Below are positions 5,218-45,278 of a stretch of 64,000 bases of DNA, one piece after another. The position numbers and the translations under genes are program-made. Origin of the DNA: Kaistella haifensis DSM 19056 (GTDB taxonomy: Bacteria; Bacteroidota; Bacteroidia; Flavobacteriales; Weeksellaceae). Under the pieces are notes generated by a model, which did not search any database, was not told the origin of the DNA, and saw nothing but the letters and a program-made list of their open reading frames with translations. Each line of letters opens with the position of its first letter. Position 1 is the first letter of the stretch. Where the stretch lies: positions 124,001 to 188,000 of the forward strand of contig NZ_JASZ02000002.1 in the NCBI RefSeq assembly GCF_000735695.2, given 5' to 3'.

Positions 5218-5232
5218 AAGTGTTTTTAAGAA

Positions 5233-5262
5233 AAAAAGCCTACCTAATCAGATAGGCTTTTT
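5233..5262. terminator. Bidirectional intrinsic terminator
   Basis: A ten-base stem (AAAAAGCCTA pairing with TAGGCTTTTT) with a ten-base loop lies between the capsid gene and the amidase gene. The A and T flanks allow it to work on either strand. It would separate the abundant capsid transcript from the lysis and tail genes. Confidence 0.75.
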
Positions 5263-5283
5263 ATATTTATTTTGTGATTATTG

Positions 5284-6243
5284 TTAAGCGCCTTGAACGA
5301 TTGAGATAACTCCTTTCCAGTCAGCTCTCTTACATCTTGCACCCATTTTCAGTAATGTTGAGTAAACGTCACCGTAATACAGTGGGTTCCCTTTGTCATC
5401 AAACAAATGAGTGTCTCCCATTGCCTTGGTAACAGATTGCTTTTGCCATAACAGACAGCCTAAATTGTCAGTTGCTGCAAGAGCGGTTCCCGGTGCAATG
5501 GCTGCACCTTCACTGGTAAATGCCAATACTGAACTTCTTTCCAAAATTTTGAATCCTGCGAACTCACCAACAATACCCTTTGAAAGGTCAGCGGCGTTTT
5601 GGAATGCAGCCATTTGGTTAGCTGATAATGAATCCAAAAATTGCTGATACATGTAAGATTCAAGCATTGCATATCTCTCAGACTTTGGAACATTATCTTT
5701 GTTCATGATCGCCTGAGCTTTTTGAAGCTCTTTGTAGCTCAATGCCTTTCTGGTTCCAGTTTGGCCATCTTCACCATTTACAGCCTCGGCTGCACCTGTA
5801 GTTGGGATTTTTCTGTTTGCTGGTAAATTATCAGCTGTAACACCGCCGCCAACTGCTGGTTTAAATGCTCTTACCCAGTTGTAAACTACTTCATCACCTA
5901 CAGCTTCAATTAATGTATTGACATGATCGCCAAGTACAGAATCTGTTTTTTGGTAAGAAAGTTCCAGCTGGTCAGCCAGTGGCAAATGAGAAGGATCGGT
6001 AGTCCAAACATCAAGCGCATACACCAATGCTGTATCGGCTCTTTGCACCGCTGTTGCCGGATACACTGATCTGTTTTTTACCGTTCCGGGCTTTGCCCCG
6101 GCTTGTGGAATATAAACAACTGAACCACCTTTTACGAATTGAGATTCGTCAACACATAGTGCTAAATGGGGATTTTCTTTCCATAGTTTTTCAACTACGT
6201 ATTGCGCCCACAGTTCTTGTGGTACTTTTGGATTTTGTGCCAT
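5284..6243 (-). CDS. Phage major capsid protein
   Basis: A 319-residue protein encoded directly downstream of the protease-scaffold gene, as expected for a major capsid protein. The N-terminus (QELWAQYVVEKLWKENPHLA) resembles Bacteroidota Mu-type capsid proteins, with a middle that includes DQLELSYQKTDSVLGDHV and a Gly-rich loop. No signal peptide is present. It is followed by a strong terminator. The call rests on position, size and family resemblance; the fold cannot be read directly. Confidence 0.75.
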   Translation of the reverse strand: MAQNPKVPQELWAQYVVEKLWKENPHLALCVDESQFVKGGSVVYIPQAGAKPGTVKNRSVYPATAVQRADTALVYALDVWTTDPSHLPLADQLELSYQKTDSVLGDHVNTLIEAVGDEVVYNWVRAFKPAVGGGVTADNLPANRKIPTTGAAEAVNGEDGQTGTRKALSYKELQKAQAIMNKDNVPKSERYAMLESYMYQQFLDSLSANQMAAFQNAADLSKGIVGEFAGFKILERSSVLAFTSEGAAIAPGTALAATDNLGCLLWQKQSVTKAMGDTHLFDDKGNPLYYGDVYSTLLKMGARCKRADWKGVISIVQGA

Positions 6244-18330: not shown

Positions 18331-18422
18331 TAAGGTAAGAAATAATGGATTTGGAATATTGAATTTTTCACGCCGACTCCTCCTCGTTAGCGGCTAAAAA
18401 CAACTTCGTTTTCGAGTAGGGG

Positions 18423-18556
18423 AATTGCAGGTAACGGTTTGCAGCTTGGCGAAGTGGCGGAAATCGAAGCACAAATGTTGAGTTTTGCACAAAAGTTCAA
18501 TCGAAGAACTGAACTTGAATTTAGCAATGAACCCGCCATTTTGCCAAACTGCTGTT
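18423..18556 (-). repeat. attC-like imperfect palindrome 1
   Basis: A 134-bp imperfect palindrome. The left arm TTGGCGAAGTGGCGG pairs with CCCGCCATTTTGCCAA on the right, the outer ends carry the triplets AAC and GTT, and the centre contains CGAAGCACAAA shared with other copies. On the minus strand it follows the gene at 20976-21647, as attC follows a cassette gene. The IS91-like element starts immediately after its terminal GTT. Confidence 0.6.
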
Positions 18557-18633
18557 GAACTAAACCTCCGGTAGCTTTTCCCATTCGCCGTTTTAGTAAC
18601 TTTGTTTTTATTAACCCTTAAAAAACATATAAA

Positions 18634-19634
18634 ATGGCTACAAAAAAAAATCTCCGGAGGATTTAAGGACCAACAAATTTCTCAATCGTGCCTCGAGCGA
18701 AGTTAATGGTTTTGCCGAACTTCTGCAACGCTTCGAAAGAAATATTTCCATCCTGGGCAGAAGCAAACGTACCTTCGACAATTATTCCCGTCACGTTGCA
18801 GCCTTGGCGCTTCATTTCGGTAAAGTCCCTACCGAATTAGACCCGGAAGACATCAAAGATTACCTTTTTGAACTTCAAAAGCGATCAAAAACCCCTTCTC
18901 AGTCGTACTTTAAACATACCGTTTACGGACTGCGGTTTTTGCTGAAAACCGAAGGCTTGCCTTACAGCTACCTCCATCTTCCCGCGATTCCAAAAGTGAA
19001 AAAACTTCCCACTATTTTAAGCCGTGAAGAAATCTGGCGAATGCTTCAAAGTGCTGAACTCCTGAAACACAAACTGCTCATCGGCCTGATCTACGGTTGC
19101 GGACTGCGCTGTATGGAAGTAAGGAATATCAAGCTTCAGCATTTGGATTTTGACCGGAAGATGCTGCATATCGTTCAGGGTAAAGGCAGCAAAGACCGCT
19201 ATGTTCCCCTGTCCGAACATTTAATCAGAGGCTTGAAAACCTTCATCAGTATTGAAAATCCGGATCAGTATTTATTCAATGGGAACCACAACAGGAATAT
19301 TGAGGAGATTGATTTAAAAACACATCAAAACGCTTTACAGAAACCTGATTTTGACTCCCGCTACAGCCAGCGCGGTGTGCAGTGGGTAATAAAAACCATT
19401 TCTAAAAAAGCCGGCATCACCAAAGAGGTTCACACCCATACTTTGCGCCACAGCTACGCCACGCATCTGCTGGAAGAAGGCGTTCCGATCATCATGGTTC
19501 AGAAACTTCTGGGTCATGAAAGAATTGAATCGACCATGGAATATCTTCATGTCTGCCAGCTTTCGGATCAGAAGCCTCACAGTCCTTTGGATACCGTTTT
19601 CGCTTTATGCCGCAAAAATGGAATCCCGAAGTAA
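18634..19634 (+). CDS. Tyrosine recombinase of IS91-like element (needs +1 slippage)
   Basis: A phage-integrase-type recombinase. Catalytic parts are GCGLRCMEVRNI (first Arg), the Lys-containing VQGKGSKDRYVPL, HTLRHSYATHLLEEG (His-x-x-Arg), GHERIESTMEYLHV (final His and Tyr). The N-terminal SAM-like core-binding part is encoded from an ATG at 18634, but that frame stops after ten codons because of a run of nine A residues at 18642-18650. One more A gives an unbroken 333-residue protein. The deleted second copy has the same nine A residues, so this may be regulated slippage, not decay. Without slippage only a TTG at 18804 could start it. Confidence 0.82.
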
Positions 19635-20724
19635 GGGCAGAAGTGTAGCCGACGTTCTGCGCAAAATCAATTTATCGGCTCAAAATTTTACGGGTCATCA
19701 GGAAAAAACGCTTCGGGCTTTGTCCTATTGTCGGACTTCCGCCTTGGGCGGCCATATCGATGCGTGCGACGGTTGCGGAAATCTTTCCATCAGTTACAAC
19801 TCGTGTCGTAATCGGCATTGTCCGCAATGTCAAGGTCATAAAAAAGAAGAATGGATTCAGAAGCGCGAAGCGGATTTACTCCCGTGCAGCTATTATCATC
19901 TCGTTTTCACGCTTCCCGAAGAGCTGAACGGTTTGGCAATTGCAAATCCCACACTCATTTACAAAACATTGTTTGAAGCCGCCTGGGCAACTTTAAACCA
20001 ATTCGGTAACACCGAAGGAATACAGCTCGGAATGATTGCGATACTTCACACGTGGGGACAGAACCTGAGCTTGCATCCGCACCTGCACTGCATTGTTCCT
20101 GGCGGCGGAATTGATCATCACGGAAAGTGGAAAAAGAAAGTACGAACCGATAAATATCTCTTCTCTGTAAAAGCGATGAGCAAAGTATTCCGGGCAAAGT
20201 TTGTGGCTTTATTGAGAACTTCGGGAGTAAAAGATTCCAATTTAATGGATAAACTCTTTACCAAGAACTGGGTCGTCTATGCAAAACGTCCTTTTGGCGG
20301 CCCGAAACAGGTCATCGAGTACTTGGGCAGGTACACCCACAAAGTCGCCATCAGCAACCACCGTATCAAAGAAGTTACCGATAAAAAAGTGCATTTTAGC
20401 TACAAAGATTACCGGAAAGGTGGCGAAAAAAAGGAGATGACCCTATCCCATGTGGAGTTTATCAGGCGCTTCAGTCTGCACATTCTGCCAAAAAGGTTTG
20501 TGCGGATCCGCCATTACGGGATTTTGAGCAGCAGCTGGAAACGTGGGAAACTTCAGGCTCTGCAATCCGATTTAAAGATCAAGATCCCGGAGGTAACACC
20601 CAAAACGCTGCTCAATAAATGCCGGTGCTGCAAGGAGGGAAACCTGGTGACCATTGCCGTTTTCGGGCAGCGCGGTCCGCCGCAGGATTTTCTTTTCGTT
20701 ACCCAACCTTTGTCTGCAAAATAA
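19618..20724 (+). CDS. IS91-family HUH transposase
   Basis: A 368-residue transposase when started at ATG 19618, overlapping the recombinase gene by 17 bp. The N-terminal zinc ribbon is CDGCGNLSISYNSCRNRHCP, the HUH metal motif is HPHLHCIVPGGG, and the tyrosine region is YLGRYTHKVAISNHRI. Such Y1/Y2 enzymes nick single-stranded DNA and move the element by rolling-circle replication. A paired upstream recombinase is a known feature of some IS91 elements. Confidence 0.92.
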   Translation: MESRSKGRSVADVLRKINLSAQNFTGHQEKTLRALSYCRTSALGGHIDACDGCGNLSISYNSCRNRHCPQCQGHKKEEWIQKREADLLPCSYYHLVFTLPEELNGLAIANPTLIYKTLFEAAWATLNQFGNTEGIQLGMIAILHTWGQNLSLHPHLHCIVPGGGIDHHGKWKKKVRTDKYLFSVKAMSKVFRAKFVALLRTSGVKDSNLMDKLFTKNWVVYAKRPFGGPKQVIEYLGRYTHKVAISNHRIKEVTDKKVHFSYKDYRKGGEKKEMTLSHVEFIRRFSLHILPKRFVRIRHYGILSSSWKRGKLQALQSDLKIKIPEVTPKTLLNKCRCCKEGNLVTIAVFGQRGPPQDFLFVTQPLSAK

Positions 20725-20927
20725 CCTTTGCGGGTAAGGGAAGCTGTGCCCTACCGCCAGTAAAACCCCGCAGAACCCGCTTCCAAAGGCTACCCAACGC
20801 CACAAAAAAAAGCAGTCCTTCTGAAAAACTGCTTTGCACCTCTAAATTCTAAAAACGACATCCCCATAAGAGGACCATCATACTGCTGAAAAGCCACCGG
20901 AGCTTCCGTTCAACGGGCTTTCATTTC

Positions 20928-20942
20928 TTGTCTTGCAGACAA
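20928..20942 (+). other. Conserved terminal hairpin of IS91-like element (candidate oriIS)
   Basis: TTGTCT pairs with AGACAA around a TGC loop 18 bp from the end of the element. Copy 2 has TGTCC-TGC-GGACA at 25175-25187, where the T-A pair has become C-G on both sides. This compensating change supports a structure used at the replication origin end of IS91 elements. Confidence 0.5.
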
Positions 20943-20975
20943 AACGAAAGCTTAGTTATTGTGCGATGTTTTTTT

Positions 20976-21647
20976 TTAACATTGTGATTTAATTTTTATC
21001 GATTTGGCTCTGATCGCAAAAAATTCCTTGACTAAAATTTCATCATCTTGAATTAGCTCTGCAGAACCGCGAGAGATTATTGTCGTAGAAGTTGGAGATT
21101 TCCAAACTTGCCGAAAACAACCCTTTATTTCAGGAAAGTTATTGACAAAAAAAGAGATGGCAAATTCGTCATTCCAATATTGCTCTATTATAGACTCTAA
21201 AATGGCATCATATTTATGGATGATTCTATCTTGCAAAACACTATTTAGTTTTAAAGGTATGTTATGGCATAAATCAGCCAACAATCTAGCGTTATTGTCT
21301 TGACTGTGTCGAATTTCTATAAATGCATAGTATAAGGCTTTGTGCAAAATCAATCTTGTGTCAATTTGCGAGTCGTCGGTAAAAAAATCTTCATAAACCT
21401 CAAAGAAAAGGTCGAAAGCCACACTACTATTCCCATTGCAATAATTTAAAATAATCTGAACCCAATCAATATCAACCTTTTCGGAAAAATATAATTGGCA
21501 GTATTTGGAGAATAAGATATTGTCTTCAAAAGAATGCGCAACATTAATTCTATCAATATACCTTGCCAACTCGTATAAATTTCTTTCGCCTAAATAATTG
21601 GAAGGGTTATTTTTTAATTTTGAAATATCGTTTGCAATTCTATACAT
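20976..21647 (-). CDS. Cassette-borne protein of unknown function (223 aa)
   Basis: A 223-residue, helix-rich, cytoplasmic protein, starting YRIANDISKLKNNPSNYLGE with conserved-looking aromatic and acidic residues (FFEVYEDFFTDDSQIDTR, then NFPEIKGCFRQVWKSPT). I do not recognise the family. The gene fills its cassette: it stops about 15 bp from the left boundary (GTGCGATG) and starts 26 bp from the right one (ATCGCACAAC), and those two boundaries are complementary. Such compact packing is typical of integron-type cassettes. Confidence 0.6.
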   Translation of the reverse strand: MYRIANDISKLKNNPSNYLGERNLYELARYIDRINVAHSFEDNILFSKYCQLYFSEKVDIDWVQIILNYCNGNSSVAFDLFFEVYEDFFTDDSQIDTRLILHKALYYAFIEIRHSQDNNARLLADLCHNIPLKLNSVLQDRIIHKYDAILESIIEQYWNDEFAISFFVNNFPEIKGCFRQVWKSPTSTTIISRGSAELIQDDEILVKEFFAIRAKSIKIKSQC

Positions 21648-21663
21648 AATATTGGTTTAAAAT

Positions 21664-21800
21664 ATCGCACAACGTTTCGGCGCTTGGCGAAGAAGCGGTT
21701 TTCGAAGCACTAAACTGTCCGCCAGCACTGAACTTGATACGAAGCACAAAGCTTCATTTAAGCACTGAACCCGCTTTTTTGCCAAACGCCTGTTGTACCA
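21664..21800 (-). repeat. attC-like imperfect palindrome 2
   Basis: TTGGCGAAGAAGCGG on the left pairs with CCCGCTTTTTTGCCAA on the right; compared with palindrome 1 the inner pairs changed together (TGG/CCA to AAG/CTT). The outer triplets are AAC at 21671-21673 and GTT near 21792-21794. It is the only complete copy without an insertion in this array apart from palindrome 4. On the minus strand it lies between the DUF4184 gene and the 223-residue gene. Confidence 0.65.
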
Positions 21801-21804
21801 CCAG

Positions 21805-22533
21805 TTATTTTTCTTTCGTCCTTGTCAGCCACGGTGTTATTGTTAATGAAATTAGTCCTGCGGAAATAGCTGTCACAATTACGTTTCCGTATTGTTTATA
21901 GTCAAGTCCGCTTAAAAGTCTTACTGCAATAATTGTCAAAGTTAGTCCTGCTAAAATTGTCCAATATTTCAAATTTATATTTTCTTTTTCAGTCTTGTTT
22001 GTCGGCAGTTTGTAAATGGCAAAAACAATTACAAGTCCACCAAGTAAAGTTGAACCGTGTTGTAATATTTTCAGCATTGGAATTTGTCTGCCTAAAAAGT
22101 CCACCGAGTTTTGTAATGCTGGAATTGTTTGAACGAAATAGCCGTGGTCGTGAGTAAAGCTGTCCCAAAATATGTGAGAAGCTGCACCGATTAGAATTGA
22201 AATTGTCACTACTAACCAATTTCTTTTGAAGTGTCCATTCCAGTCAAACTGTCTAAATGCCGAAAATCTTGATTTTAAAATTGTCGGCAAGTTGTCGAAT
22301 AAACTGTCTCGAACAATGTTGTGAAAAATGAAAGCAAGCAACAGTCCTAAAGGTAAGTCGAACCAAAAAAGTCCGTCAATTGTGTGGCTGTAATTGCTCT
22401 TAATTCTCATTCTTAAAAAGTATTCAAAGTCTGGTGTCATACTACCGATTACAAGTCCAGTCAACGAGAACCATTGTCGAGGCAAAAATGTCAACGGTAA
22501 AACTATTGCTGGGTGTGAAAATGTAAATGGCAT
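21805..22533 (-). CDS. DUF4184 family membrane protein
   Basis: A 242-residue multi-helix membrane protein of the DUF4184 family. The start PFTFSHPAIVLPLTFLPRQW and the following LTGLVIGSMTPDFEYFLRM match the family's N-terminal signature, and GAASHIFWDSFTHDHGYFV near residue 120 supplies His and Asp residues typical of membrane-bound metal-dependent hydrolase relatives (YdjM-like). Three more hydrophobic segments follow. Its role is unknown. The gene is a cassette: its stop is about 10 bp from the left palindrome and the ends TACCACC and GGTGGTA are complementary. Confidence 0.8.
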   Translation of the reverse strand: MPFTFSHPAIVLPLTFLPRQWFSLTGLVIGSMTPDFEYFLRMRIKSNYSHTIDGLFWFDLPLGLLLAFIFHNIVRDSLFDNLPTILKSRFSAFRQFDWNGHFKRNWLVVTISILIGAASHIFWDSFTHDHGYFVQTIPALQNSVDFLGRQIPMLKILQHGSTLLGGLVIVFAIYKLPTNKTEKENINLKYWTILAGLTLTIIAVRLLSGLDYKQYGNVIVTAISAGLISLTITPWLTRTKEK

Positions 22534-22581
22534 TTCTTTTTGTCTGTTCGTTTATTTGTTTCAGGGTCGTCTTTTATAATT

Positions 22582-22710
22582 GGTGGTAACGTTTCGGGGC
22601 TTGGCGATGGCGGGCAAACCGAAGCCGAAACTTTCAACTAAAATACAAATTTTAATCGAAGCACAAAACGTGAACTGATAAATTTCCGCCCGCTATTGCC
22701 AAACCCTTGT
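22582..22710 (-). repeat. attC-like imperfect palindrome 3 (right end invaded)
   Basis: TTGGCGATGGCGGG pairs with CCGCCCGCTATTGCCAA. It begins after GGTGGTAAC and should end CCCTTGTT, but a group II intron begins after CCCTTGT at 22711 and an IS91-like copy follows the next T. Removing both restores CTTGTTATCGGCAG, complementary to the far end of the next cassette (TTGCCGATAAC). Confidence 0.6.
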
Positions 22711-24566
22711 GTGTGCCCAGCATGGGCATCTTTCTCTTACGAAAGTAGGAAATTAATCTAGAGGGTGCAAGTCCCTTATGGGCGAGGGTAACGCCTTGAA
22801 CCATTAGTAAGTCGCAAGGGTGGTAACCGTGAGGTTACATCTGAAGGAAGCGAGACTACAAAACTCGGTACTGACGAACAGGAACCGTATAAGAGGCATT
22901 TATGCATGGGTAAGCAAGCACATCATTGTAACGCCCTAAGATTACAAAAGTGCATAAATGTAGATACGGCAGGAATTGAGTGAAAGAAGATGCCATTACC
23001 TGGGGAGATCTTCGTAGCCACGAGTTGGTAAAACGAAGAAGTCAGCAGAAGTCATAGTACTTAGGAGCAACGAGCCGATGAATAAATCGGAGGACTCACA
23101 ACCCGAGGAAGGACTGAACGTATTTTGGTTCTTAATTCACAATGGAATTCCCGTTAAACGGAATAGCCTTGGGAAAGCGGAACAGGTTAAAGTAAAAGAA
23201 CAAGAATGATTGAAAGAGTATTACATCCTCGTAACATGCAACGAGCCTTACAGCAAGTAATTGCGAATAAAGGCAGTGCTGGCGTGGACGGAATGAACGT
23301 GCAAGAACTATCTGATTATCTTCGGAAAGAGAAAACACGACTTTATTCTTCCATAAAAGAGAGGTGTTATCTTCCCCAACCCATTCTTGGAGCAGAAATT
23401 CCTAAAGGAAATGGTAAAACCCGACTTTTAGGAATACCAACAGTAACCGATAGAGTGTTACAACAAGCGGTATCACAAGTTCTGATGCCACACTATGAGA
23501 ATGAATTTAGTGTTCACAGTTATGGATTCAGACCTAATAAAAACGCCCGCCAAGCAGTTGGTAAAGCGTTGGAGCATATCCATGAAGGTTATCCATTTAT
23601 TGTAGACATTGATCTAAAGACCTTCTTTGATGAAGTAGACCACTGCATCCTTCTGAACTTACTTTATCGAAAGGTAAAATGCCCAATAACCATGCGCTTA
23701 ATCCGCAAATGGTTACGAGCCCCAATTCTAATCAATGGTCAATTACACAAACGAAGAAAGGGAGTTCCGCAAGGTTCTCCTTTAAGTCCGTTATTGTCGA
23801 ATATCCTGCTCAATGAGTTGGATAAAGAATTGACAAAACGTAAACTTCGATTTATACGCTACGCAGATGATTTTAGTATTTATACCCAGTATAAAAGCCA
23901 TGCAACTGCAACGTTAAAAGCCATAGAAAAGTACTTGAAAACGAAACTTAAACTCACTATTAATGGTGAGAAAAGTGGCGTTAGAAAGCCAGTACAATTT
24001 GAACTACTGGGATTCGGATTCGAATCTACTTATAAGAAAGGGGACAAGGGCAAATACCAATTGGTAGTAGGCAAGAAAGCGTGGACACAATTGAAAGAGC
24101 GACTAAAATCCCTCACCCGCAAAACCGCTCCGATAAGTTTTGATGAGCGCATCCAAAAGATTAACGAAGTTCAGCGTGGATGGTTAAACTATTTTCGAGG
24201 AACAAGTATCAAGGGAAAACTCCTCAACTTTGACGGATGGCTGAGAAACCGACTGCGGTATTGCATTTGGCATGATTGGAAGAAGCCCGAACGGAAGAGA
24301 AAAAAACCTCATTCGATTAGGAATCGAACAAAGCCTTGCGTATGCATATAGTCGAACTCGGAAAGGAGGATGGGCAGTGGCACAAAGTCCTATTTTAGGA
24401 ACAACAATCACTATTTCAAGGCTAAAGAAGCGTGGTTACATCGCCATGTTAGAACTTCATCTATCACTTAACCCATCAAGATACGAACCGCCGTATACGA
24501 GACCCGTACGTACGGTGGTGTGAGAGGCGTACTCCGTTCGATTATGAGCGGAGCCGTCTACTCGAT
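22711..24566 (+). mobile_element. Group II intron with maturase gene
   Basis: The RNA starts with the group II 5' consensus GTGTG (GTGTGCCCAGCATGGGCATC). A domain V-like hairpin lies near 24485-24525 (CCGCCGTATACGAG pairing with GTACGTACGGTGGT), followed by a domain VI-like stem ending CTACTCGAT at 24566. The ribozyme precedes and follows the maturase gene in the usual order. It is inserted on the plus strand, opposite to the cassette genes, at TTGT/T in the end of palindrome 3. That is the behaviour of group IIC-attC introns, which enter attC sites in this orientation; the class itself is not proven. Confidence 0.85.
23206..24523 (+). pseudogene. ltrA: Group II intron reverse transcriptase/maturase, frameshifted
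   Basis: The reverse transcriptase domains are complete: GKTRLLGIPTVTDRVLQQAV, the first catalytic region VDIDLKTFFDEVDH, the GVPQGSPLSPLLSNILL box and the YADD active site in RFIRYADDFSIY. The maturase region continues to about residue 365. At a run of seven A residues near 24300 one extra A shifts the frame, ending the protein early. The normal C-terminus is found in the next frame (LIRLGIEQSLAYAYSRTRKG and beyond to 24523). No HNH nuclease domain is present. The copy is therefore probably inactive unless slippage restores the frame. Confidence 0.85.
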
Positions 24567-24567
24567 T

Positions 24568-25206
24568 GAACTAAACCTCCGGTAGCTTTTCCCATTCGCC
24601 GTTTTAGTAACTTTGTTTTTATTAACCTTTTAAAAACTCATGAAATGGCTACAAAAAAAAATCTCCGGAGGATTTAAGGACAAACAAATTCCTGAATCGT
24701 GCCTCGAGCGAAATTAAAGGTTTTGCCGAACTTCTGCAACGCTTTGAAAGAAATATTTCCATCCTGGGCAGAAGCAAGCGTACCTTCGACAATTATTCCA
24801 GGCACGTTGCAGCCTTGGCGCTTCATTTCGGTAAAGTCCCTACCGAATTAGACCCGGAAGACATCAAAGATTACCTTTTTGAACTTCAAAAGCGATCAAA
24901 AACCCCTTCTCAGTCGTACTTTAAACATACCGTTTACGGACTGCGGTTTTTGCTGAAAACCGAAGGCTTGCCTTACAGCTACCTCCATCTTCCCGCGATT
25001 CCAAAAGTGAAAAAACTTCCCACTATTTTAAGCCGTGAAGAAATCTGGCGAAAGCTTCAGTCCTTCCGAAAAAACTGCTTTGCACCTCTAAATTCTAAAA
25101 ACGACATCCCCATAAGAGGACCATCATACCGCTGAAAAGCCACCGGAGCTTCCGTTCAACGGGCTTTCATCTCGTGTCCTGCGGACAAGACGAAAGCTTA
25201 GTTATT
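24568..25206 (+). mobile_element. IS91-like element, copy 2 (internally deleted)
   Basis: About 640 bp with both ends of the element at 18557-20960 kept and about 1.76 kb of the middle lost. The junction near 25054 joins the recombinase region to the region after the transposase, at the shared bases AGTCCTTC. The copy carries no transposase and resembles a non-autonomous (MITE-like) derivative that the full copy could move in trans. It sits after the GTT of palindrome 3, the same position copy 1 has in palindrome 1. Confidence 0.85.
24645..25135 (+). pseudogene. Truncated tyrosine recombinase remnant
   Basis: This is the N-terminal 135 or so residues of the IS91-like recombinase, almost identical to copy 1 (DYLFELQKRSKTPSQSYFKH and so on). 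It ends where the internal deletion joins the distal end of the element, so the catalytic Arg, His and Tyr residues are all missing. The nine-A run after the ATG at 24645 is kept. Confidence 0.8.
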
Positions 25207-25221
25207 ATCGGCAGTGGTTTT

Positions 25222-26016
25222 TTATTTAAATTCTATCGGATTATTCCTTTTTTTCATATTCGTTTTAACTCTATCTACACTTTCAGGTGCAACAGTAAAT
25301 CCTGACATTGACATTTCATTAATAATATTTTCATTGATATTATTTACTGCTTTAAAATATTCTTCTTTACTAATTTTTTTATGTTGAGTAAAATAGCTAT
25401 CTTTTAGTATTGTATTTTCAAATAAAATACCCTTCTTAATGCTAATTAAATCAAACGAGTAGTTGTTTTTTGTATCAGAAACTTTTACAATCAATCCTGG
25501 AAGATTATTAAATTTATATGGTCCATCATAAATTGGAATTTCTGTTGTATACCAAGCAATCCAAGTTCTTCCGCCATAATTAGTAATTGCTTTTTGACAA
25601 TTAAAATCACCAATTTTACTTTTTTCACTTAATAATTTCCAATTGAAATTAGATAGCTCAGTGTAATTAAATTTATATTTTAAAAGACTTTCATAATAAT
25701 TAATTGTATTATCTTCTTTTACAATTACATACTTAAAACGAGTGTTTGGAACTTTTGAAAAATTTAATTCTAAATTTTTATTAATTTTCATACTGTTTAC
25801 TATAGAATCCCTCTTTAAAAAAATATCACTTGTAAAATAAGATTTACCTCCTTCAACCAATAATGTAAAATCCTCTTTTTTTCTACTGTTGATGTCCGTA
25901 GAATCAGACAAATATTCTAATCTATAACCTAATTGATAATTTTTATCAATTTGAATCTGGCTATATGCACTCATGGAGACTAATAAAAAAAAAGTCAATA
26001 ATATATAATTTTTCAT
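25222..26016 (-). CDS. GLPGLI family secreted protein
   Basis: A 264-residue protein with signal peptide NYILLTFFLLVSMSAYSQIQ and the family-defining motif in PYKFNNLPGLIVKVSD near residue 175. GLPGLI proteins are found almost only in Bacteroidota, often in many copies, and their function is unknown. Other typical residues are the aromatic NYGGRTWIAWYTTEIPI just before the motif. The gene is downstream of an 86-residue secreted Cys-containing peptide, with a 63-bp gap, in one cassette whose ends are complementary. Confidence 0.85.
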   Translation of the reverse strand: MKNYILLTFFLLVSMSAYSQIQIDKNYQLGYRLEYLSDSTDINSRKKEDFTLLVEGGKSYFTSDIFLKRDSIVNSMKINKNLELNFSKVPNTRFKYVIVKEDNTINYYESLLKYKFNYTELSNFNWKLLSEKSKIGDFNCQKAITNYGGRTWIAWYTTEIPIYDGPYKFNNLPGLIVKVSDTKNNYSFDLISIKKGILFENTILKDSYFTQHKKISKEEYFKAVNNINENIINEMSMSGFTVAPESVDRVKTNMKKRNNPIEFK

Positions 26017-26079
26017 AGTATATAATTAAAATAAAAAGAGCATTACTTGTTAGTAATGCCCACTTTTTAGGTCGTTTCT

Positions 26080-26340
26080 TTAGTTTGGACAAGCAATATC
26101 ATATGCGTCCCAAGCATTCATAATTATTTCCAATGTAGATCCACCACAAGCCCAACCTGTAGTGCCACAATCATAAGAAACTCTAACACAACTCCAATCA
26201 GCACTTGCTGTTTTTTTCTTAATAATTTTTGTTTCAATTTTTTTTGGTGCAGTAGTTGTAACTTTCTTAACAACTTTTCCCGTTGAAGCACTTACTAAAG
26301 TTATGCCTCCTAAAGCGACTGTTAAAAGTAATTTTTTCAT
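26080..26340 (-). CDS. Small secreted Cys-containing peptide
   Basis: Started at ATG 26340 the product is 86 residues: signal peptide KKLLLTVALGGITLVSA, a Lys/Thr-rich linker, and a C-terminal part with SADWSCVRVSYDCGTTGWAC and ending DAYDIACPN, giving four Cys. A longer frame to 26655 runs through a palindrome and is not believed. The four cysteines suggest two disulfides or a modified secreted peptide. It shares a cassette with the GLPGLI gene. Function unknown; a bacteriocin-like role is only a guess. Confidence 0.6.
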   Translation of the reverse strand: MKKLLLTVALGGITLVSASTGKVVKKVTTTAPKKIETKIIKKKTASADWSCVRVSYDCGTTGWACGGSTLEIIMNAWDAYDIACPN

Positions 26341-26450
26341 ATAAATTAAAAGTTTTATATTGAGTTGATAAATTAATAAAAAATCTTTTAAAGAACAAAA
26401 TTTATTTTTATTTTTTTTCAATTTTGCATCAGATTTCGTAATTTTTATAT

Positions 26451-26652
26451 CATTGCCGATAACGGAAAAAGTATTGGCGAAGTGCGGGCTAAATGGAACT
26501 GAAAGTTCAATTTCGACCAAACATAGCGAATGCTTTTTCAATACTGCTAACTTACAAAAAATTGCAGAATTGAAAAGCATGAGCGGATTATTTTTGTGCT
26601 TTTCAATTTCGCACTTCTCCCCGCATTTTGCCAATACAATGTGCCTGTTGCA
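26451..26652 (-). repeat. attC-like imperfect palindrome 4 (long form)
   Basis: GTATTGGCGAAGTGCGGG pairs with CCCGCATTTTGCCAATAC. It is about 200 bp, longer than copies 1-3 because of a larger central arm that itself contains related runs (TTGAAAAGCATGAGCGG). The start GCCGATAACGG and the end CCTGTTGCAC keep the AAC and GTT triplets. It stands upstream of the peptide gene and downstream of the IS1182-containing cassette. Confidence 0.6.
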
Positions 26653-26768
26653 CAACCTCTTTTCAAAGATACGGTAAAAAGATTTCAGAAATAGAAAATG
26701 TGGTTATAAACGGGTTTAAAATATTGAAAATCAATTGTATATATCGTTTATTCTCCGTAAATTAGCGT

Positions 26769-28322
26769 ATGCAAGGCAGAAAAACATTTGAACCGAAAAT
26801 CTTCTACGAACTCAGCCTGGAGGGGCTCGTTCCCCAGGATGATTTCTACCGTAAAATCAGTCAGGAAGTACCCTTTAGCTTCCTCTACAAGTCAACCTCT
26901 CATTATTACGGCCGTTGCGGGCAGGACAGCATCGATCCTGTGGTCTTTTTCAAGATACTGTTAGTGGGCTACCTGAACAATTTAAACAGCGACCGCGCCT
27001 TGCTGCGGTTCTGTTCAGACAGCCTCTCCATCCGCCTTTTCCTGGGCTACGACCTGGATGAGGAGCTTCCGTGGCATTCCACCATATCCAGGACGCGGGC
27101 GCTTTTCGGGGAGGAACTCTTTATGAAACTGTTCCAAAAAATCCTGAGCCTCTGCATAGAGAAAGGCATGGTGCGCGGGAAGCGCCAGGCGGTGGATTCA
27201 GCCTTCATTAAGGCCAATGCAAGCATGGACAGCCTGGTTGAAAAGGAAGTTTTGGAAGACGCTTCAGCGTTTGTGGAGGAACTGGAGGAGAACAGCGAGT
27301 ACAAGGTAACTTCGGCCCGAAAGAAACTTGTAGAACAGCACCACGCCTGGAAGGAAAAAGAATACAAAGACATGCCCGGAGCCAGCAAAAACGAGGACAG
27401 GAGGGACGAGGACGGCAACCCGCTGCGTCCCAAGTTCCTCTCCAATCATACCCATTATTCTCCCACGGATCCGGATGCCAAAATCTCGGTAAAACCGGGC
27501 AAAGCGAGGCAGCTCAACTATGCCGGACAGATAGCGGTGGACGACAAACATCATGTTATCACGGGAGCCTGCGCGAGCACGGCCGGCAGCAAGGACAGTG
27601 CAATCATGCACGAGATTATGGACCGCATGCTGGAAAACCTGGAACAGCACGGCATAAGGACGGAGGAAGCATTGCTGGATGCCGGCTACAGCAGTGGCGA
27701 GAGCCTGGAGTATTGCGAAAAGAACGGCATCAATGCGTTTATCCCGAACTTCGGGCAGTACAAAGCGGAACGGGAGGGATTTGAATTTGTAAAAGGAGAA
27801 ACGCAGGAGGAGGATCATTACCGCTGCACTCAAAAAGGCGGCAACGGAGCTGTCTTACAGTTCAAGAGAATCCTCACCGACAGCAAGGGCTACCAAAAGA
27901 AGAGCTACCGCAGCAGCGAGCGTGACTGTAAGGACTGTCCGCTGCGTGCCCAGTGCTGCGGCAGGGTAACTAAGTTCAAGAAGATAGAGGACAGTATCCA
28001 CAAGCCGCTCTACGATGCGATGCACGAGAAGCTGAACAGGGACAAAAACTACACACGCTTCCTCACCAAACGCCGCAGCTCCACGGTGGAGCCGGTGCTG
28101 GGCACGCTAATCAACTACCACAGCATGAAGAGGGTCAACACGCGGGGCATGAAAAACGCCAACAAGCATGTTTTAATGGCCGCTTTGGCTTACAACCTGA
28201 AGAAGTACCTGAAGTTTATCTCCCGGAAACCAAAAAGCAATGCCCAGATTATGCACCTTCCGGAAGGGATACTCCGGCTTTTTCTAAACCGGTTCCACAG
28301 TTCGCTGATCACTTCAATTTAA
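26769..28322 (+). mobile_element. IS1182-family transposase
   Basis: A 517-residue DDE transposase of the IS1182 group. The N-terminal part is GRCGQDSIDPVVFFKILLVG, the first Asp of the triad lies in KRQAVDSAFIKANASMDS, later LLDAGYSSGESLEYCEKNG holds the second, and the Cys-rich CKDCPLRAQCCG insertion is typical of the family. The DNA is clearly richer in G+C than its surroundings, a sign of recent arrival. It is intact. Terminal inverted repeats could not be set with confidence. Confidence 0.9.
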
Positions 28323-28365
28323 GCCACCCGAAAACCTCAGCTCCTTTGCCCGACAAAAATAGAAA

Positions 28366-28400
28366 CCTCCCTTAAATCGCTTTAAAGGAGGCCGTTTTTT
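28366..28400. terminator. Terminator after IS1182 transposase
   Basis: CCTCC-CTTAAA and TTTAAAGGAGG form a stem around a short TCGC loop, followed on the plus strand by CCGTTTTTT. It ends transposase transcription. The methyltransferase frame reads into it from the other strand. Confidence 0.65.
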
Positions 28401-29653
28401 ATGGTTTTACTTTGGAAATTACTGAAAATGTGGAGTTGTGCAACGGTTACCCTTGTTAGGCGTTCGTTGTTTTTCCTCGTCAGTTCTTTCGTTTGTAATT
28501 CAAGAGATTTCAATATGGTAACTTCAGTTTCAAATCCAAAAAGTCTACTTATTCCAGTTTCCTTTGTTTGGATTAAAATTTTCATCTTATAGTCTTTTCC
28601 GTAAGTAGCTTTCTCTAGTTTTTCAATTGCATCTTCTATACTTTCGTGTTCAGTTTGAATTTTTACAGGAACAGGCATTCCATCGCAGTGTTCTTTTAAA
28701 AAGCCGTCAATCCCTGAATTTCGTTGAACTGGAAAGGCATTGATATTTTGAAGAATTGCAAGTTCTTTATCTGTTTTCTCAAAATATTCATTTGTTCCTT
28801 TGCTTAATAAATTGGATGAAGAAATTATCATTTCTTCTAAACGTGAATTAGCCAACTCTACTGCATCAACAGAAACATCTATTCCAATAAAATTCCTTTT
28901 TAATGATTTTGCAGAAACACAAGTAGTTCCGCTTCCGCAGAATGGGTCAAGAACTAAATCTCCTTCTTCGGTTGCAATACTTAGAATTTGATTTAATAAT
29001 AAAACTGGTTTCTGAGTTGGATAACCTGTTCTTTCTTTCGCTTTTGGATTTAGATAGGGGATTTCCCAAACGTCAGAAAGTGGCACGCCTTTTTTCTCTT
29101 TTCCTAAAACTGGATTTCCATTTTCATCTCTTTTATAAACCGATTTTCCATTTTCATTTCTTTCTCTGTCTTGTAAAATTTGGTCAAGATTTGTTGTAGC
29201 TGAATAGTCGGTATAAAGTGTGTTAAATTTAAAATCTTGTGTTTTTGAATAAAAGAAAATTACTTGATGAGCATTCAAAAGCCCTTTTTTTGCATTCGAC
29301 CAACGTTTGTAAGACCAAATGATTTCACTTTGAAAATTGTCACGTCCAAAAACTTTGTCCATAACAATTCTTATGTTGTGCGAGGCTGTTTTGTCGCAAT
29401 GTAGAAACACGCTTCCAGTGTTTTTTAAAACTCTTTTTGATTGCTCTAAAACATTTTCTATTACCGCCAAATACTCTTCGATAGAATTATACTTGTCGTC
29501 AAATTCGTAAGTTTTCGAATTGTCTTTATTGGTCAAAGAATGTTTTCTTTGAGTAAAAAATGGTGGGTCAAAATAAATCAAGTCAACTTTATTGGCTTCA
29601 ATTTCTTTGAGTTTTTCAACACAATTTCCGTGAATTATTTTATTAATTTCCAT
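28382..29653 (-). CDS. Type II DNA methyltransferase (N4/N6, beta class), extended at C-terminus
   Basis: Motif IV is DLIYFDPPFFTQR near residue 30, and motif I is DLVLDPFCGSGTTCVSA near 235, with NFIGIDVS after it; this order is the beta class of amino-methyltransferases. The likely start is ATG 29653, which overlaps the nuclease gene by 11 bp. It should methylate the site cut by the partner endonuclease. The last 25 residues or so are encoded across a shortened attC-like site (28435-28463) and into the next cassette, ending in the IS1182 terminator. The native C-terminus has therefore probably been replaced. Confidence 0.88.
   Translation of the reverse strand: MEINKIIHGNCVEKLKEIEANKVDLIYFDPPFFTQRKHSLTNKDNSKTYEFDDKYNSIEEYLAVIENVLEQSKRVLKNTGSVFLHCDKTASHNIRIVMDKVFGRDNFQSEIIWSYKRWSNAKKGLLNAHQVIFFYSKTQDFKFNTLYTDYSATTNLDQILQDRERNENGKSVYKRDENGNPVLGKEKKGVPLSDVWEIPYLNPKAKERTGYPTQKPVLLLNQILSIATEEGDLVLDPFCGSGTTCVSAKSLKRNFIGIDVSVDAVELANSRLEEMIISSSNLLSKGTNEYFEKTDKELAILQNINAFPVQRNSGIDGFLKEHCDGMPVPVKIQTEHESIEDAIEKLEKATYGKDYKMKILIQTKETGISRLFGFETEVTILKSLELQTKELTRKNNERLTRVTVAQLHIFSNFQSKTIKNGLL
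28435..28463 (-). repeat. Shortened attC-like site
   Basis: On the minus strand it reads GCCTAAC-AAGGGTAACC-GTTGCAC. The outer boxes fit the integron consensus RYYYAAC and G-TT, and the start AACAAGGGT matches palindrome 3 read on the same strand. The two hairpin arms seen in the other copies are missing, which points to an internal deletion. The methyltransferase frame passes through it. Confidence 0.5.
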
Positions 29654-30278
29654 CTTGAGGTGTTCTTTCGTTAGCAATTTCAGTTAAGATAGCTTTTAGG
29701 TCAACTCCAGAATATGCTTTTAAAAAATCCCAAGCTTCATCTCCTCCATAATATTCTCCGTCAACACCAGCATAAAGTGTTTTCAATGTCTGTTGAATTC
29801 TTATTGCCTGTGTTCTTTGTGGATAAAAGAACATAATCCGAATAGGTTTATAGCCGTGATTTTTAATGACTTGAACTCTAGTATGTTCTTTTGTGATGTG
29901 GTCTCCATCAGTTGTCGCATCTTTCCATTTAACTTCAATAGCATCATTGTCATTTAAAAAATCAACTTCAAAAGTTTTAGGTCTTTGACCGATGGTGTTT
30001 TCTACTTTTGTCTTTATACCTTCTGGAAATTTATAATTTAGGCATAAAGTCGCAGATGCTTCAAGAAAAGAACCTGCGTATTTATATAAAAAACGTCCCG
30101 TATTTTGATAACTGTCTATAAGTTGCCCTTGTTCTAATGAAATTCCCAATACACGATAAATAAGATAGTGAGCATTGTCATCAGCTTTCATTTCTTCTGT
30201 TCTCGCTTCAATTTTACCTTTCAAGTTTGCTGAATAAACCTCTGCTAAATTCTTTATGCTTTGTATTAATTCTTCCAT
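29643..30278 (-). CDS. ApaLI-like type II restriction endonuclease
   Basis: A 211-residue protein from ATG 30278. The resemblance to the ApaLI-like family (which cuts GTGCAC) is in TIGQRPKTFEVDFLNDND, AIEVKWKDATTDGDHITKEH and YKPIRIMFFYPQRTQAIRI. The PD-(D/E)xK active site is read as Asp in EVDF and the Glu/Lys of AIEVKW. The gene is upstream of, and overlaps, the methyltransferase gene. The pair fills a cassette with complementary ends (GTTAGGCGT and ACGCCTAAC). The recognition site GTGCAC is an inference from family only. Confidence 0.78.
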   Translation of the reverse strand: MEELIQSIKNLAEVYSANLKGKIEARTEEMKADDNAHYLIYRVLGISLEQGQLIDSYQNTGRFLYKYAGSFLEASATLCLNYKFPEGIKTKVENTIGQRPKTFEVDFLNDNDAIEVKWKDATTDGDHITKEHTRVQVIKNHGYKPIRIMFFYPQRTQAIRIQQTLKTLYAGVDGEYYGGDEAWDFLKAYSGVDLKAILTEIANERTPQDGN

Positions 30279-30776
30279 TTTAAATTTGTCTATATAATTG
30301 GTTGCAAGGTACAAAATTTTGGTTGGTTTCGGTTCTAGTGCGGTCTGGTACAATGACGCCTAACACCCAAATATACGCAGATTTTTGAAAGTACCAAGTA
30401 TTTTTTAAAATAAATTAAATATATCGAGTAATGTATTGTTAAATAATGAATTATATGTAAATTTGTATTGCGTATTATGAATTGTTTTACCATAATTCCG
30501 CCTAATTTATTGAGTTTTTAAGAAATTTTAACATATACAAAAAACGAAGTATTATGATTGATTTTAATTACTAAAATATCATAGAACCTAGCTGAAGTTT
30601 CTAGTAGTAAATAACTGTGAGAATTTAGTTTTTTGCCTAAGTGCGAAAATTTCTGGAAAGTATACCTGCTTTCGTAACGGAAAGGGATGCATCTTTTAAA
30701 TTGCGAAACTAAAAAGACCGCTTCCGAAAAAGCAGTCTTCAAAGAGCAATATTTTCTTGTGAAATTAAGGCATTTT
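30279..30776. other. Intergenic region at the right edge of the island
   Basis: About 500 bp. The right boundary of the restriction-modification cassette is GCCTAAC at 30358-30364; to its right there is no palindrome and no integrase gene. The rest is very AT-rich and holds only the terminator of the TonB receptor gene. A 74-codon minus-strand open frame at 30518-30742 has no protein-like features. Confidence 0.5.
30714..30739 (-). terminator. Terminator of TonB receptor gene
   Basis: On the minus strand AAGACTGCTT pairs with AAGCGGTCTT around TTTCGG, followed by five T residues. It lies 38 bp beyond the stop codon of the receptor gene. Confidence 0.75.
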
Positions 30777-32906
30777 TTATTTAATTTTAATGCTCATCCC
30801 AAACATGAAATTAGTTCCCGCTTGTGAGAAATACACCGGTCCTTCATACACGTAGCCGTTGTTTACATATTTCTTGTTGAAAATATTATTGAGCAGGAAT
30901 TTGAAATCGATTTCCGTTTTTTGGATTTTCAATGTATATTTTGCATTAAAGTCGGTTAGCCAATAATCTTTTAATTGATTATCAGCAGTTTCTAAATTAT
31001 CCAAATATTGTTTTCCCACATATTGCGCAGTAACACCAAGATTGAAATTTTTGAATGGCGAGTAAATCACATTTCCGTTCGCAATGATGTTAGGAGAAAA
31101 AGAGATATCAGAATCTTTCAAAACAACATCCGCACCATTTTGAAGCGAGTTGATTTCCTTAATCTTATTCTGACTCAAAGATAAATTAGCTCCTAATTGA
31201 ATTTTATCAGAAAGTCTGCTTTGGGCAGAAAGTTCAATTCCTAATCTATAACTTTTATCTACATTCTGACGAATGAATTCACCAACATTGTTGATTCTAC
31301 CTGACAAAACCAACTGATTTTGGTAATCCATATAATACGCATTAGCCGTCAACACAACCTTTCCAAATTGCTGTTCCCAACCTGCCTCAAAATCGTGTAA
31401 GGTTTCTTCTTTTGTGCTAGGATTTGCAAAGAGGTCATCTCTATTTGGTTCGCGATGTGCATTGGCATACGAAACGAATACTTTTCCGTTTTCAATATTG
31501 AAATTGACACCAACTTTCGGGTTGAAAAAAGTCCATTTTCTGTATAGATCTGCACCTTCACCATCGCCCTGTTGGACAATTTTTGTATCATAATTAATGT
31601 TTCTTAGTTGCAAATCGCCAAAAAATTCAAATTGGTTTAATTTATAAATTGCTTTGGCAAATCCAGAAACTTCGTTCTTCACCGAATTATTTCGGTAGTA
31701 TTCGTGTTCATCAATTTGTGGTAGAAAAACGCCGGTTACATTACCAAAATGTCTTCCGTAATACTGATTGGCAACTGCTCCGAAATTCAAATCAAGATTA
31801 CCTAATTTCCCGTATAATGTTGAAACTACTCCATAAAAATCATTATCCAGCCATTTTTTTCGGATAAAATCGGTAATCTCTACCGGAGAACCTCCTACAA
31901 TCTGTACTGGTAAATTATAATTTGAATAATGAGTAGCATCTACATCAGTTTCGTCAACTCTTTTATAGTTTTCGTAATATCCTTTTCCTCTGGTGTAGTG
32001 AAGTGTTGTTTCTAAATTCCATTTATCATTGAATCTTTGTTCCCATAAAAGTTGATAATGATTTTGTCTGTAGTTGTCGGTTTCATTATCGTAGAACTTG
32101 TCTTCACCTGTGAACAAATCGGTGTACATTCCCGAATAATTAAATCTAGGATTAGTTTCCCAAGTTGCTTTATCGATTCCGTTCCAGGCTTGGTATGTTT
32201 TTTCTTTGCCTCCAAACGCCATCAAACGGATTGTGGTTTTATTTTCTTCAAAAAGTGCAGTGAAATTATAGGAATTCAAATCTGAAAATGCACGATCGAT
32301 ATAGCCATCCGAATGGATTTTGGTGTAGCGCCCCAATAGAGACAGTCGGTCTTTCCAGAATTTTCCCGAACCGATTTCGGCGGAGTATTTATAGGTGTTA
32401 AACGAACCGTAGCTGTTGTCGGATTTCACATAAAACTTCTCCTCCGGATTTTTAGAAATCACGTTGACACTCGCTCCAAAGGCTGAAACTCCATTTGTGG
32501 AAGTTCCCACCCCGCGCTGAATAACAATTTGCGAAGCAGAACTTGTTAAATCCGGAACATTCACGAAAAAAGTTCCTTGGGATTCCGAATCATTGTACGG
32601 AATGCCATTCATCATTACATTGATGCCATTTCCACCTACACCACGAATTCTGAAACCAGTGTATCCAACGCCGTTTCCGGCATCAGAAGTGGAAATTACC
32701 GAAGTTTGGTTTTTCAGCAAGATTGGTAAATCCTGACCAAGGTTTTTGTTCCCTAAATCTTTTTCTACAATAATGATTTCTTTGGAAACAGGAAGTCTTT
32801 TTGTGAAATTCACACTTTCGATTTCGTGAATTTTCAAAGTGTCTTGCGTCGATTGTGCAAGGTAAAAAGGACCAGCAAAAAGTCCTAAAAAAATAATTCC
32901 TTTCAT
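30777..32906 (-). CDS. TonB-dependent receptor, probable thiamine-compound transporter
   Basis: A 709-residue outer membrane receptor. After the signal peptide (MKGIIFLGLFAGPFYLAQ) comes a TonB-box-like stretch ESVNFTKRLPVSKE, then the plug domain with GVGYTGFRIRGVGGNGINVM and DLTSSASQIVIQRGVGTSTN, then a 22-strand barrel ending in a terminal aromatic-Ile-Lys strand (MFGMSIKIK). A TPP riboswitch precedes the gene, so it most likely imports thiamine or a thiamine precursor and is shut off when TPP is plentiful. TPP-controlled TonB receptors are known in Bacteroidota. The substrate is inferred from the riboswitch, not from the protein. Confidence 0.88.
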   Translation of the reverse strand: MKGIIFLGLFAGPFYLAQSTQDTLKIHEIESVNFTKRLPVSKEIIIVEKDLGNKNLGQDLPILLKNQTSVISTSDAGNGVGYTGFRIRGVGGNGINVMMNGIPYNDSESQGTFFVNVPDLTSSASQIVIQRGVGTSTNGVSAFGASVNVISKNPEEKFYVKSDNSYGSFNTYKYSAEIGSGKFWKDRLSLLGRYTKIHSDGYIDRAFSDLNSYNFTALFEENKTTIRLMAFGGKEKTYQAWNGIDKATWETNPRFNYSGMYTDLFTGEDKFYDNETDNYRQNHYQLLWEQRFNDKWNLETTLHYTRGKGYYENYKRVDETDVDATHYSNYNLPVQIVGGSPVEITDFIRKKWLDNDFYGVVSTLYGKLGNLDLNFGAVANQYYGRHFGNVTGVFLPQIDEHEYYRNNSVKNEVSGFAKAIYKLNQFEFFGDLQLRNINYDTKIVQQGDGEGADLYRKWTFFNPKVGVNFNIENGKVFVSYANAHREPNRDDLFANPSTKEETLHDFEAGWEQQFGKVVLTANAYYMDYQNQLVLSGRINNVGEFIRQNVDKSYRLGIELSAQSRLSDKIQLGANLSLSQNKIKEINSLQNGADVVLKDSDISFSPNIIANGNVIYSPFKNFNLGVTAQYVGKQYLDNLETADNQLKDYWLTDFNAKYTLKIQKTEIDFKFLLNNIFNKKYVNNGYVYEGPVYFSQAGTNFMFGMSIKIK

Positions 32907-32977: not shown

Positions 32978-33031
32978 GCGTTGCAATCATTGGCAAACTG
33001 CTATATTCTCACATTGCTACATTTGCAACGC
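32978..33031 (-). promoter_or_regulatory. Expression platform of TPP riboswitch
   Basis: A perfect 9-bp inverted repeat (GCGTTGCAA at 32978-32986 and TTGCAACGC at 33023-33031) brackets 36 bases. Its distal arm starts right where the aptamer ends, so this stem can compete with the last aptamer pairing. No T tract follows, so control may act on translation or RNA folding. Confidence 0.5.
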
Positions 33032-33103
33032 GTCCCTAAACAGCATTACCTGTTCCAGGTTCATTGGGTGTAATCTCAGCCTTTTACAGCACCCCTTTAG
33101 TTT
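33031..33103 (-). ncRNA. TPP riboswitch aptamer
   Basis: Read on the minus strand the conserved blocks are AAAGGGGTGCT, GGCTGAGATTACACCC, TGAACCTG, AACAGGTAATGCTG and AGGGA, in the order of the THI/TPP aptamer. The start codon of the TonB receptor lies about 125 bases downstream. The core matches the family closely. Confidence 0.93.
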
Positions 33104-33129
33104 CGTCAGCGAAAATACAATATTTTTAA

Positions 33130-45261: not shown

Positions 45262-45278
45262 CAGTCGAATAAAATTTC

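Follow-up and report, generated by a model that had tools for sequence, protein, structure and literature searches.

According to the accessible portion of PMC9668308, an additional IntI-specific domain near patch III is taken to define integron integrases and is among the marks used by the standard integron finder, and a large survey with that finder names, in the text available, Salinibacter ruber as carrying the newly found complete integron in Bacteroidetes proper (PMC9024848). Here we describe an array of gene cassettes in a 64,000-nt stretch of the genome of Kaistella haifensis DSM 19056 (assembly GCF_000735695.2, contig NZ_JASZ02000002.1, positions 124,001 to 188,000; hereafter the window, in whose numbering all positions are given unless a contig is named). 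We consider it probable, at roughly 85%, that this region is a small cassette array of a Bacteroidota integron lineage served by a non-IntI tyrosine recombinase whose recombination activity we infer from comparative evidence. The lineage has two types of integrase, A and B, and no description of a type A/B cassette system was found in the literature, including the accessible text of PMC9024848, PMC7923331, PMC8618304, PMC9668308, PMC2426708 and PMC8138268, in a search that lay outside subscription papers and preprints.

The array occupies window 18433-30364; being on the minus strand, it starts at 30364 and extends to about 18433, with five units (A to E) and five attC-like sites (S1 to S5) whose hairpins lie between the cassettes and whose outer arms match for each unit. 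This agrees with an earlier, sequence-only reading, which had proposed a minus-strand array bounded by four long palindromes, now S1 to S4, and a shortened site, now S5. In all sites AAC to GTT reads on the plus strand, the folding strand, opposite the cassette genes: S1 (18433-18556) and S2 (21671-21794) each span 124 nt from AAC to GTT, S3 (22588-22710 plus T24567) has its right-hand core split by an intron, S4 (26461-26649) is of a long type with 189 nt, and S5 (28442-28457) retains 16 nt and has lost its stem. The unit-specific complementary ends proposed for all five units are indeed present (ATCGCACAAC/GTTGTGCGAT, GGTGGTAAC/GTTGTACCACC with two extra bases, TGCCGATAAC/GTTATCGGCA, GTTGTGCAAC/GTTGCACAAC and ACGCCTAAC/GTTAGGCGT), the GTT half of the first and third pairs being split by insertions. 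The same property was measured by comparing the bases after the GTT of one site with those before the AAC of the next in 111 distinct units shorter than 4 kb from the fetched stretches: 4.75 of the first six variable bases matched, versus 2.90 ± 0.11 after shuffling (5000 shuffles, maximum 3.34, z about 17), and the unit-matched ends are not due to chance. The eleventh base from the start of GTT was matched in 7% of units and, where printed, is usually a G facing a T, which is a wobble pair on the folding strand. An open reading frame (ORF) of at least 80 aa was present in 107 of 118 units, 101 of these 107 sharing one direction relative to the site, with a median of 20 nt from stop codon to unit end. 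The earlier statement that most genes stop about 10-15 bp before the site needs an exception in the window, where a methyltransferase ORF (28382-29677) runs through S5.

On the plus strand the sites follow the pattern AAC-G..X-GC-G(A/C/T)(A/T)G-Y..loop..Y'-(TTTT, TATT or similar)-GC-X'-n-T-GTT. A covariance model (R1), for which 30 short sites were used, the K. haifensis genome contributing two (S2 and a site on its contig C29), returned S1 at 118 bits, S2 (itself among the model-building sites) at 116, S3 at 97 and S4 at 20.8 (E 0.0022; S4 also matches our pattern scanner); the other window matches up to E 1 were three reverse-strand shadows and one match at E 0.41. As R1 scores the long site type poorly, site counts obtained with it are lower bounds. 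The covariation of stem arms that had been noted between copies holds in the 30 aligned sites, where column pair 20-131 is CG in 14 and GC in 10 and pair 36-115 is GC in 17 and CG in 13, and one stem pair is G.T in 30/30 and another in 21/30, which become C.A on the other strand. The suggestion that only AAC and GTT are constant stands in that both are invariant across these rows, but this constancy is partly built in, because the rows, picked to differ, came from a scanner that requires AAC and GTT. This home-made scanner, which uses a fixed stem pattern, yielded 165 sites in the fetched stretches, mostly of about 124 or about 186 nt (at least one, the 264-nt G022 878140, is a likely chance match and was kept), and none in 80 shuffled loci; the shortest R1 matches have 67 nt. 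Of 153 distinct sites, 127 have the more stable fold on the strand opposite the genes, the mean gain being 2.45 kcal/mol.

At the right end of the array (30364), where a further palindrome had been expected, lies instead an attI-like site (30362-30380, minus strand) with TATATTTG beside the GTT core, a motif that recurs beside the integrases of relatives. Window 30362-30565 aligns over 204 bp, at 96.6% identity, with positions 1060-1263 of contig C29, which comprise the attI and leader of a tyrosine-recombinase gene, the type A integrase, whose complete frame occupies C29:1252-2322 (TTG start assumed). In the window, the leader and start remnant (30381-30574, plus strand) hold six codons and a stop (30554-30574), the similarity to C29 ending at 30565. 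Because of this attI/leader match and a frame that stops after six codons, the window looks, from its sequence, like a second integron platform that kept its attI and lost its integrase. The claim that the array has no integrase is thus true of the array itself, but not of the genome, which carries a type A gene next to a near-identical attI.

The same arrangement recurs among relatives, in which versions with alternative cargo, for which the earlier reading had asked, are present in quantity: their arrays contain up to 46 sites and terminate at an attI accompanied by an integrase of type A or type B, from which the cassettes read away. At ten type A loci of the genus, AAC followed by a (C/T)AAATATACGCA-like motif lies 114-195 bp before the integrase start (10/10, with a looser motif), sites lie 0.5-4.2 kb away in 9/10, and cassettes and integrase always diverge, counts that are biased because the loci were chosen partly for nearness to sites. 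A less biased set comprised 80 named loci fetched by their integrase alone (the best 80 of 512 relatives). R1 sites were present in 48 of them. In 39 loci they lie upstream and share the strand of the integrase, in 8 they lie downstream on the opposite strand, and in 1 they lie downstream on the strand of the integrase; judged by the polarity of the sites, the cassettes of 47 of the 48 loci thus run away from the integrase. On these loci the scanner placed 34 sites upstream on the plus and none on the minus strand, with 7 downstream minus and 3 downstream plus. The attI motif occurred upstream in 47/80 loci (mean 0.2 and maximum 2 in 100 shuffles) and downstream in 0/80. Within 9 kb, contigs ended on the upstream side alone in 40 loci, on the downstream side alone in 6, on both sides in 12 and on neither in 22, an excess of upstream ends that is expected if repeated sites break assemblies. 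A type A integrase with the array past its 3' end was observed at L163, L169, L182, L183, L185, L186, L188 and L128; five of these have an attI of similar core after the stop codon, and L163, L182, L183, L186 and L188, the five of the first seven that the integrase tree includes, form one branch of it, L128 having its array on the same side and lying elsewhere in the tree.

By its sequence the integrase is not IntI. The IntI-specific insertion of about 40 aa is absent from 45/45 type A and B integrases read: the segment from KGKKDR to HxLRH measures 58 aa in 34/34 type A proteins (10 from the genus, 24 from the 80 named loci) and 59 aa in 11/11 type B proteins, compared with 60 aa in XerA and 100 aa in IntI (the 9 pattern-readable of 14 sequences from 15 loci). 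Against the TIGR02249 IntI model, the type A and B proteins tested score 198 and 209 bits (cut-off 265), and matches among sequences in the PDB are XerA (161 bits) and, in two pieces around the missing segment, VchIntIA (145 bits). The NCBIfam model NF040815 gives 223.7 bits for one type B and 219.9 for one type A protein (cut-off 220). The residues that we take, from their motifs, to be the catalytic ones of tyrosine recombinases are invariant in 9 type A rows. In a tree, clades A (support 100/99), B (100/98) and IntI (100/100) are separate and A joins B at 93/81, the position of A and B relative to IntI receiving 50/25 among long Xer branches. Both types have an extra N-terminal stretch of about 80 aa. 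Foldseek, run with a predicted whole-protein model (predicted template modelling score 0.47), ranks XerA first and VchIntIA next; for the N-terminal domain, HARP appears in Pfam at E 0.11 in 1/7 sequences (DUF5710 falls below cut-off in 6/7) and in Foldseek at E 0.46 with a poor fit, and the VIA comparison gives a best Z of 4.1, to other chains, HARP not being among the best 50, so that a HARP-like (forked-DNA-binding) domain is not supported by these model-based comparisons.

These properties bear on the view that the window holds a classical cluster of attC sites lacking integron integrases (CALIN), left behind when an ordinary integron lost its IntI. CALINs have a similar general anatomy, gene orientation and intron, as far as the accessible text of PMC7923331 describes them, but no IntI passes the curated TIGR02249 cut-off in 60 genomes (K. 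haifensis and 59 relatives), for which reason an ordinary integron or CALIN was dropped. IntI exceeds the cut-off in 70 of 247 Bacteroidota genomes sampled, 69 outside the class of K. haifensis and just one within it. Moreover, the classical R-box consensus RYYYAAC / GTTRRRY is matched by 10 and 6 of the 165 scanner sites, no R1 match occurs at 15 true IntI loci (about 1.5 kb read on each side), and the arrays have a different integrase and a conserved attI beside them. A CALIN origin is accordingly very improbable. The proposal of an integron with attC sites thus survives as integron-like and not as a classical IntI/attC system, given an integrase without the IntI-specific insertion and sites that depart from the R-box consensus; likewise, an IntI-type integrase sought elsewhere in the genome is not there at the cut-off, but a non-IntI type A enzyme is, on C29.

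It is comparably doubtful that the cassettes are moved by some other recombinase, namely type B, XerCD or the tyrosine recombinase of an IS91-like element. The end motif of this element lies directly after GTT in 18 of 21 occurrences, mostly past the right arm of a site (one exception is a chance match), and the element seems to target attC-like sites. Type B loci also carry sites, detected by R1 or the scanner at 12/12, and mostly have their own attI: in 9/12 loci the stop codon is separated by 103-117 bp from the motif AACTT(A/G)(C/T), which mostly forms part of a AACTTGTTTATATGTC-like sequence and was not found in the other 3/12, the type B integrases pointing towards the array; in Chryseobacterium sp. 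SNU WT5 one such integron resides on a plasmid of 66 kb. On the other side, the window attI matches a type A leader, type A integrase and attI go together across classes, and a search of the K. haifensis genome with a type B query returned no type B integrase, the best match there being the type A gene at 45% identity.

Footprints of movement are seen within and between genomes. Within single arrays, five pairs of units (four from G028 and one from G021) show 100% identity and differing flanks, and in 4/5 the identical block takes in the site body on the 3' side of the gene. In three pairs the left edge lies 0-3 nt from AAC and the right edge 1-2 nt past AAC, and in a fourth, with similar neighbours, the edges lie 9 and 32 nt further. 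One cassette is common to G011 and G027 (98.9% identity across 1196 bp); its edges fall at AAC, and its neighbours differ between the two genomes. That the hairpins are merely transcription terminators or repeats between genes (like repetitive extragenic palindromes or miniature inverted-repeat transposable elements), copied by repeat recombination, is highly implausible: it accommodates stable hairpins near stop codons (median 20 nt from stop to unit end) and a G028 unit duplicated without its hairpin body, but would lead one to expect neither unit-matched outer arms, nor an integrase with an adjacent attI that shares the core, nor copies whose edges lie near AAC and whose flanking hairpins differ, and it was dropped because of the arm-matching test.

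Several observations weigh against a type A cassette system as the explanation. The connection between integrase and sites is one of linkage only. No R1 site was found at E ≤ 0.01 in 32 of the 80 type A loci, six of which have at least 9 kb of upstream sequence, and the tenth type A locus of the genus, G034, has integrase and attI and no site by either R1 or scanner. At L123 (Riemerella) the R1 site is on the unexpected side, and 3 of 44 scanner sites (L175, L185 and L186) lie downstream on the integrase strand. The rows are not all independent, L182 and L183 having the same integrase and L112 and L137 being apparently identical with contigs of two genus genomes. In all, 92 of 213 genomes without a type A match at the threshold have sites, a count that concerns type A only. 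All six end bases match in 58 of 111 units; some of the mismatches stem from missed sites or insertions, and some may be real. In the fifth identical pair (G028 1279571/1320828) the copied stretch does not include the site body of the unit, an outcome that would not be predicted from simple capture of cassettes. Promoter evidence is weak: the -7 box is itself contained in the attI motif, and of 41 loci 19 have an upstream box.

With these points weighed, we retain an integron lineage with a type A integrase as the probable reading. The sequence shows attC-like sites, unit-matched ends, an attI, a linked integrase, sites whose orientation makes the cassettes point away from it, and cassette-sized copies, and we infer recombination by the type A enzyme, a single-stranded substrate and promoter activity. 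A cassette would be a circle with a single attC-like site, its matching outer arms consisting of AAC/GTT plus some 6-12 unit-specific bases. The substrate recognised by the integrase would be the folded strand that runs opposite the gene, and recombination at the conserved AAC/GTT core would link the cassette to the attI beside the integrase gene; this attI would be the entry point of new cassettes, with a promoter from which they are read. The TATATTTG of the window attI fits the Bacteroidota -7 box, whose consensus we take to be TAnnTTTG. The integrase encoded at C29:1252-2322 could act in trans on the window attI. More broadly, we see an evenly balanced case for a second root of integron recombination, in which Bacteroidota-wide XerA-like integrases of types A and B would recombine folded single-strand sites without the IntI-specific domain, the N-terminal domain possibly replacing it and each type having its own attI.

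The system appears widespread in Bacteroidota. R1 sites were detected in 69 of 100 relatives (36/36 genomes of the genus including K. haifensis, 19/25 of other genera of the family and 14/39 others of the order) and in 124 of the 247 genomes sampled from the phylum. A type A profile matched at E ≤ 1e-80 in 34 of these 247; the weaker matches, often without the N-terminal part, may be cousins. Sites were present in 32 of the 34 (all except G159 and G194) versus 92 of the 213 others (Fisher p 9e-9, kinship ignored). A scan of 97 cassette proteins (92 of 101 gene-sense unit ORFs and 5 from the window, after dropping identical proteins and ORFs crossing a locus border) identified 64 Pfam families at 1e-5, including, among the 25 of 64 families listed, two ParE toxins, EcoRV and ApaLI enzymes, two Adenyl_transf and five GLPGLI proteins; the 25 of 138 PADLOC families listed are methyltransferases. 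In a separate observation, the plasmid pHH1107 (L207) encodes at 5001-5702, beside tet(X3), a TnpF protein that shares 49.6% identity with the type A integrase over its C-terminal 234 aa; Acinetobacter accounts for 16 of the 21 matching plasmid records. The similarity hints at a Bacteroidota background for the neighbourhood of this gene.

Four insertions interrupt the window array, namely two IS91-like ones, a group II intron and an IS1182-like element; immediately left of the array is an IS110-like gene. The first IS91-like element (18557-20958, plus strand, right border read from sequence) follows directly on the GTT of S1 and encodes a tyrosine recombinase (18804-19634) and a Y2 transposase (19516-20724), with Pfam matches to Phage_integrase, Y2_Tnp and Zn_Tnp_IS91. 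Unit A (20959-21673, minus strand) contains an ORF for 223 aa (20976-21647) with no Pfam match at E ≤ 0.01, and unit B (21792-22590, minus strand) encodes a DUF4184 protein (21805-22533; PF13803, E 2.4e-76). The 1856-nt group II intron (22711-24566, plus strand, GTGTG...AT, borders read from sequence) splits the right-hand core of S3 at TTGT/T and has a reverse transcriptase/maturase ORF (23206-24351) and matches to Rfam RF02001 (139.6 bits) and RF00029 (41.3 bits) and to TIGR04416. At three of four homologous insertions examined, the sequence reaches GT ahead of the intron and continues beyond it with T and an R'-like arm, and an evident hairpin precedes two of these three; the fourth insertion is at L138. 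A second, internally deleted IS91-like copy (24568-25204, plus strand) follows the intron-split GTT core of S3 and carries direct repeats of 95% and 92%. Unit C (25205-26463, minus strand) encodes a GLPGLI protein (25222-26016; PF09697, E 4.7e-10) and a small peptide of about 86 aa (26080-26340, start read from sequence). Unit D (26647-28444) contains only an insertion, a plus-strand transposase gene (26769-28322; PF05598, PF13751) that we take to be IS1182-like, and no recognised cargo ORF. Unit E (28455-30364, minus strand) encodes an ApaLI-like restriction endonuclease (29643-30353; PF09499, E 1.4e-89) and the DNA methyltransferase whose ORF (28382-29677, minus strand; PF01555, E 8.2e-55) crosses S5. 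The same stretch, AGGGGAATTGC, precedes sites in the window (18415-18435) and in G028, G016 and G027, and is perhaps the end of one common cassette. Outside the array, the window contains a SAM-II (S-adenosylmethionine) riboswitch (45275-45334, plus strand, 63.5 bits) and a thiamine pyrophosphate (TPP) riboswitch-like element (33016-33106, minus strand, 41.3 bits, which is below the Rfam gathering score of 54.3). The latter lies upstream of a large ORF on the minus strand (30777-32906) that presumably encodes a TonB-dependent receptor.

If this interpretation is true, integrons would be far commoner in Bacteroidota than counted, given R1 sites in half of the genomes sampled, and surveys requiring the IntI domain would miss most integrons of the phylum. 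The IntI-specific domain would not be essential, integrons would not all depend on one enzyme family, and the evolution of folded-site recombination from Xer-like enzymes would become directly testable. The cassettes would also offer a possible route of gene capture and shuffling in environmental and host-associated Bacteroidota.

Among known systems, an integron-like subgroup of tyrosine recombinases has been described, and the accessible text of PMC8138268 yielded no link between its insertion-less members and cassette arrays. The NCBIfam entry NF040815 (recomb_XerA_Arch, 'site-specific tyrosine recombinase/integron integrase'), whose name is borne by the plasmid type B gene, is a protein label to which we found no attI, site or array attached. 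Like group IIC-attC introns, whose target is given in the accessible part of PMC7923331, the window intron sits at TTGT/T after the hairpin of a site and opposite to the cassettes, but its host site is not a classical attC and its placement in class IIC is putative. The window resembles a CALIN in being a cluster of sites without an adjacent integrase, with sites off the classical attC consensus, and differs from one by its retained attI and by the presence, elsewhere in the genome, of an integrase gene that belongs to the system. Compared with the classical integron, the integrase has no IntI-specific insertion and an extra N-terminal stretch of about 80 aa, the type A attI is of the CAAATATACGCA type, the sites are mostly of about 124 or 186 nt with arms GTTRnnnGnnG, and the type B integrase points towards the array. 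By the integrase and by the site consensus, the system lies outside the IntI integron family. Its anatomy is nonetheless integron-like: an integrase adjoins an attI, recognised by conserved motif and position, at which the cassettes would start; the mostly one-gene cassettes read away from it, in the same direction and with the site at the 3' end (101/107); the site is foldable, with outer arms matching per cassette; toxin and restriction genes are among the cargo; and cassette edges fall at the AAC/GTT core, where the footprint of movement fits in 3/5 pairs (within 0-3 nt), is blurred in 1/5 and is unfit in 1/5, and is joined by one fitting case between genomes.

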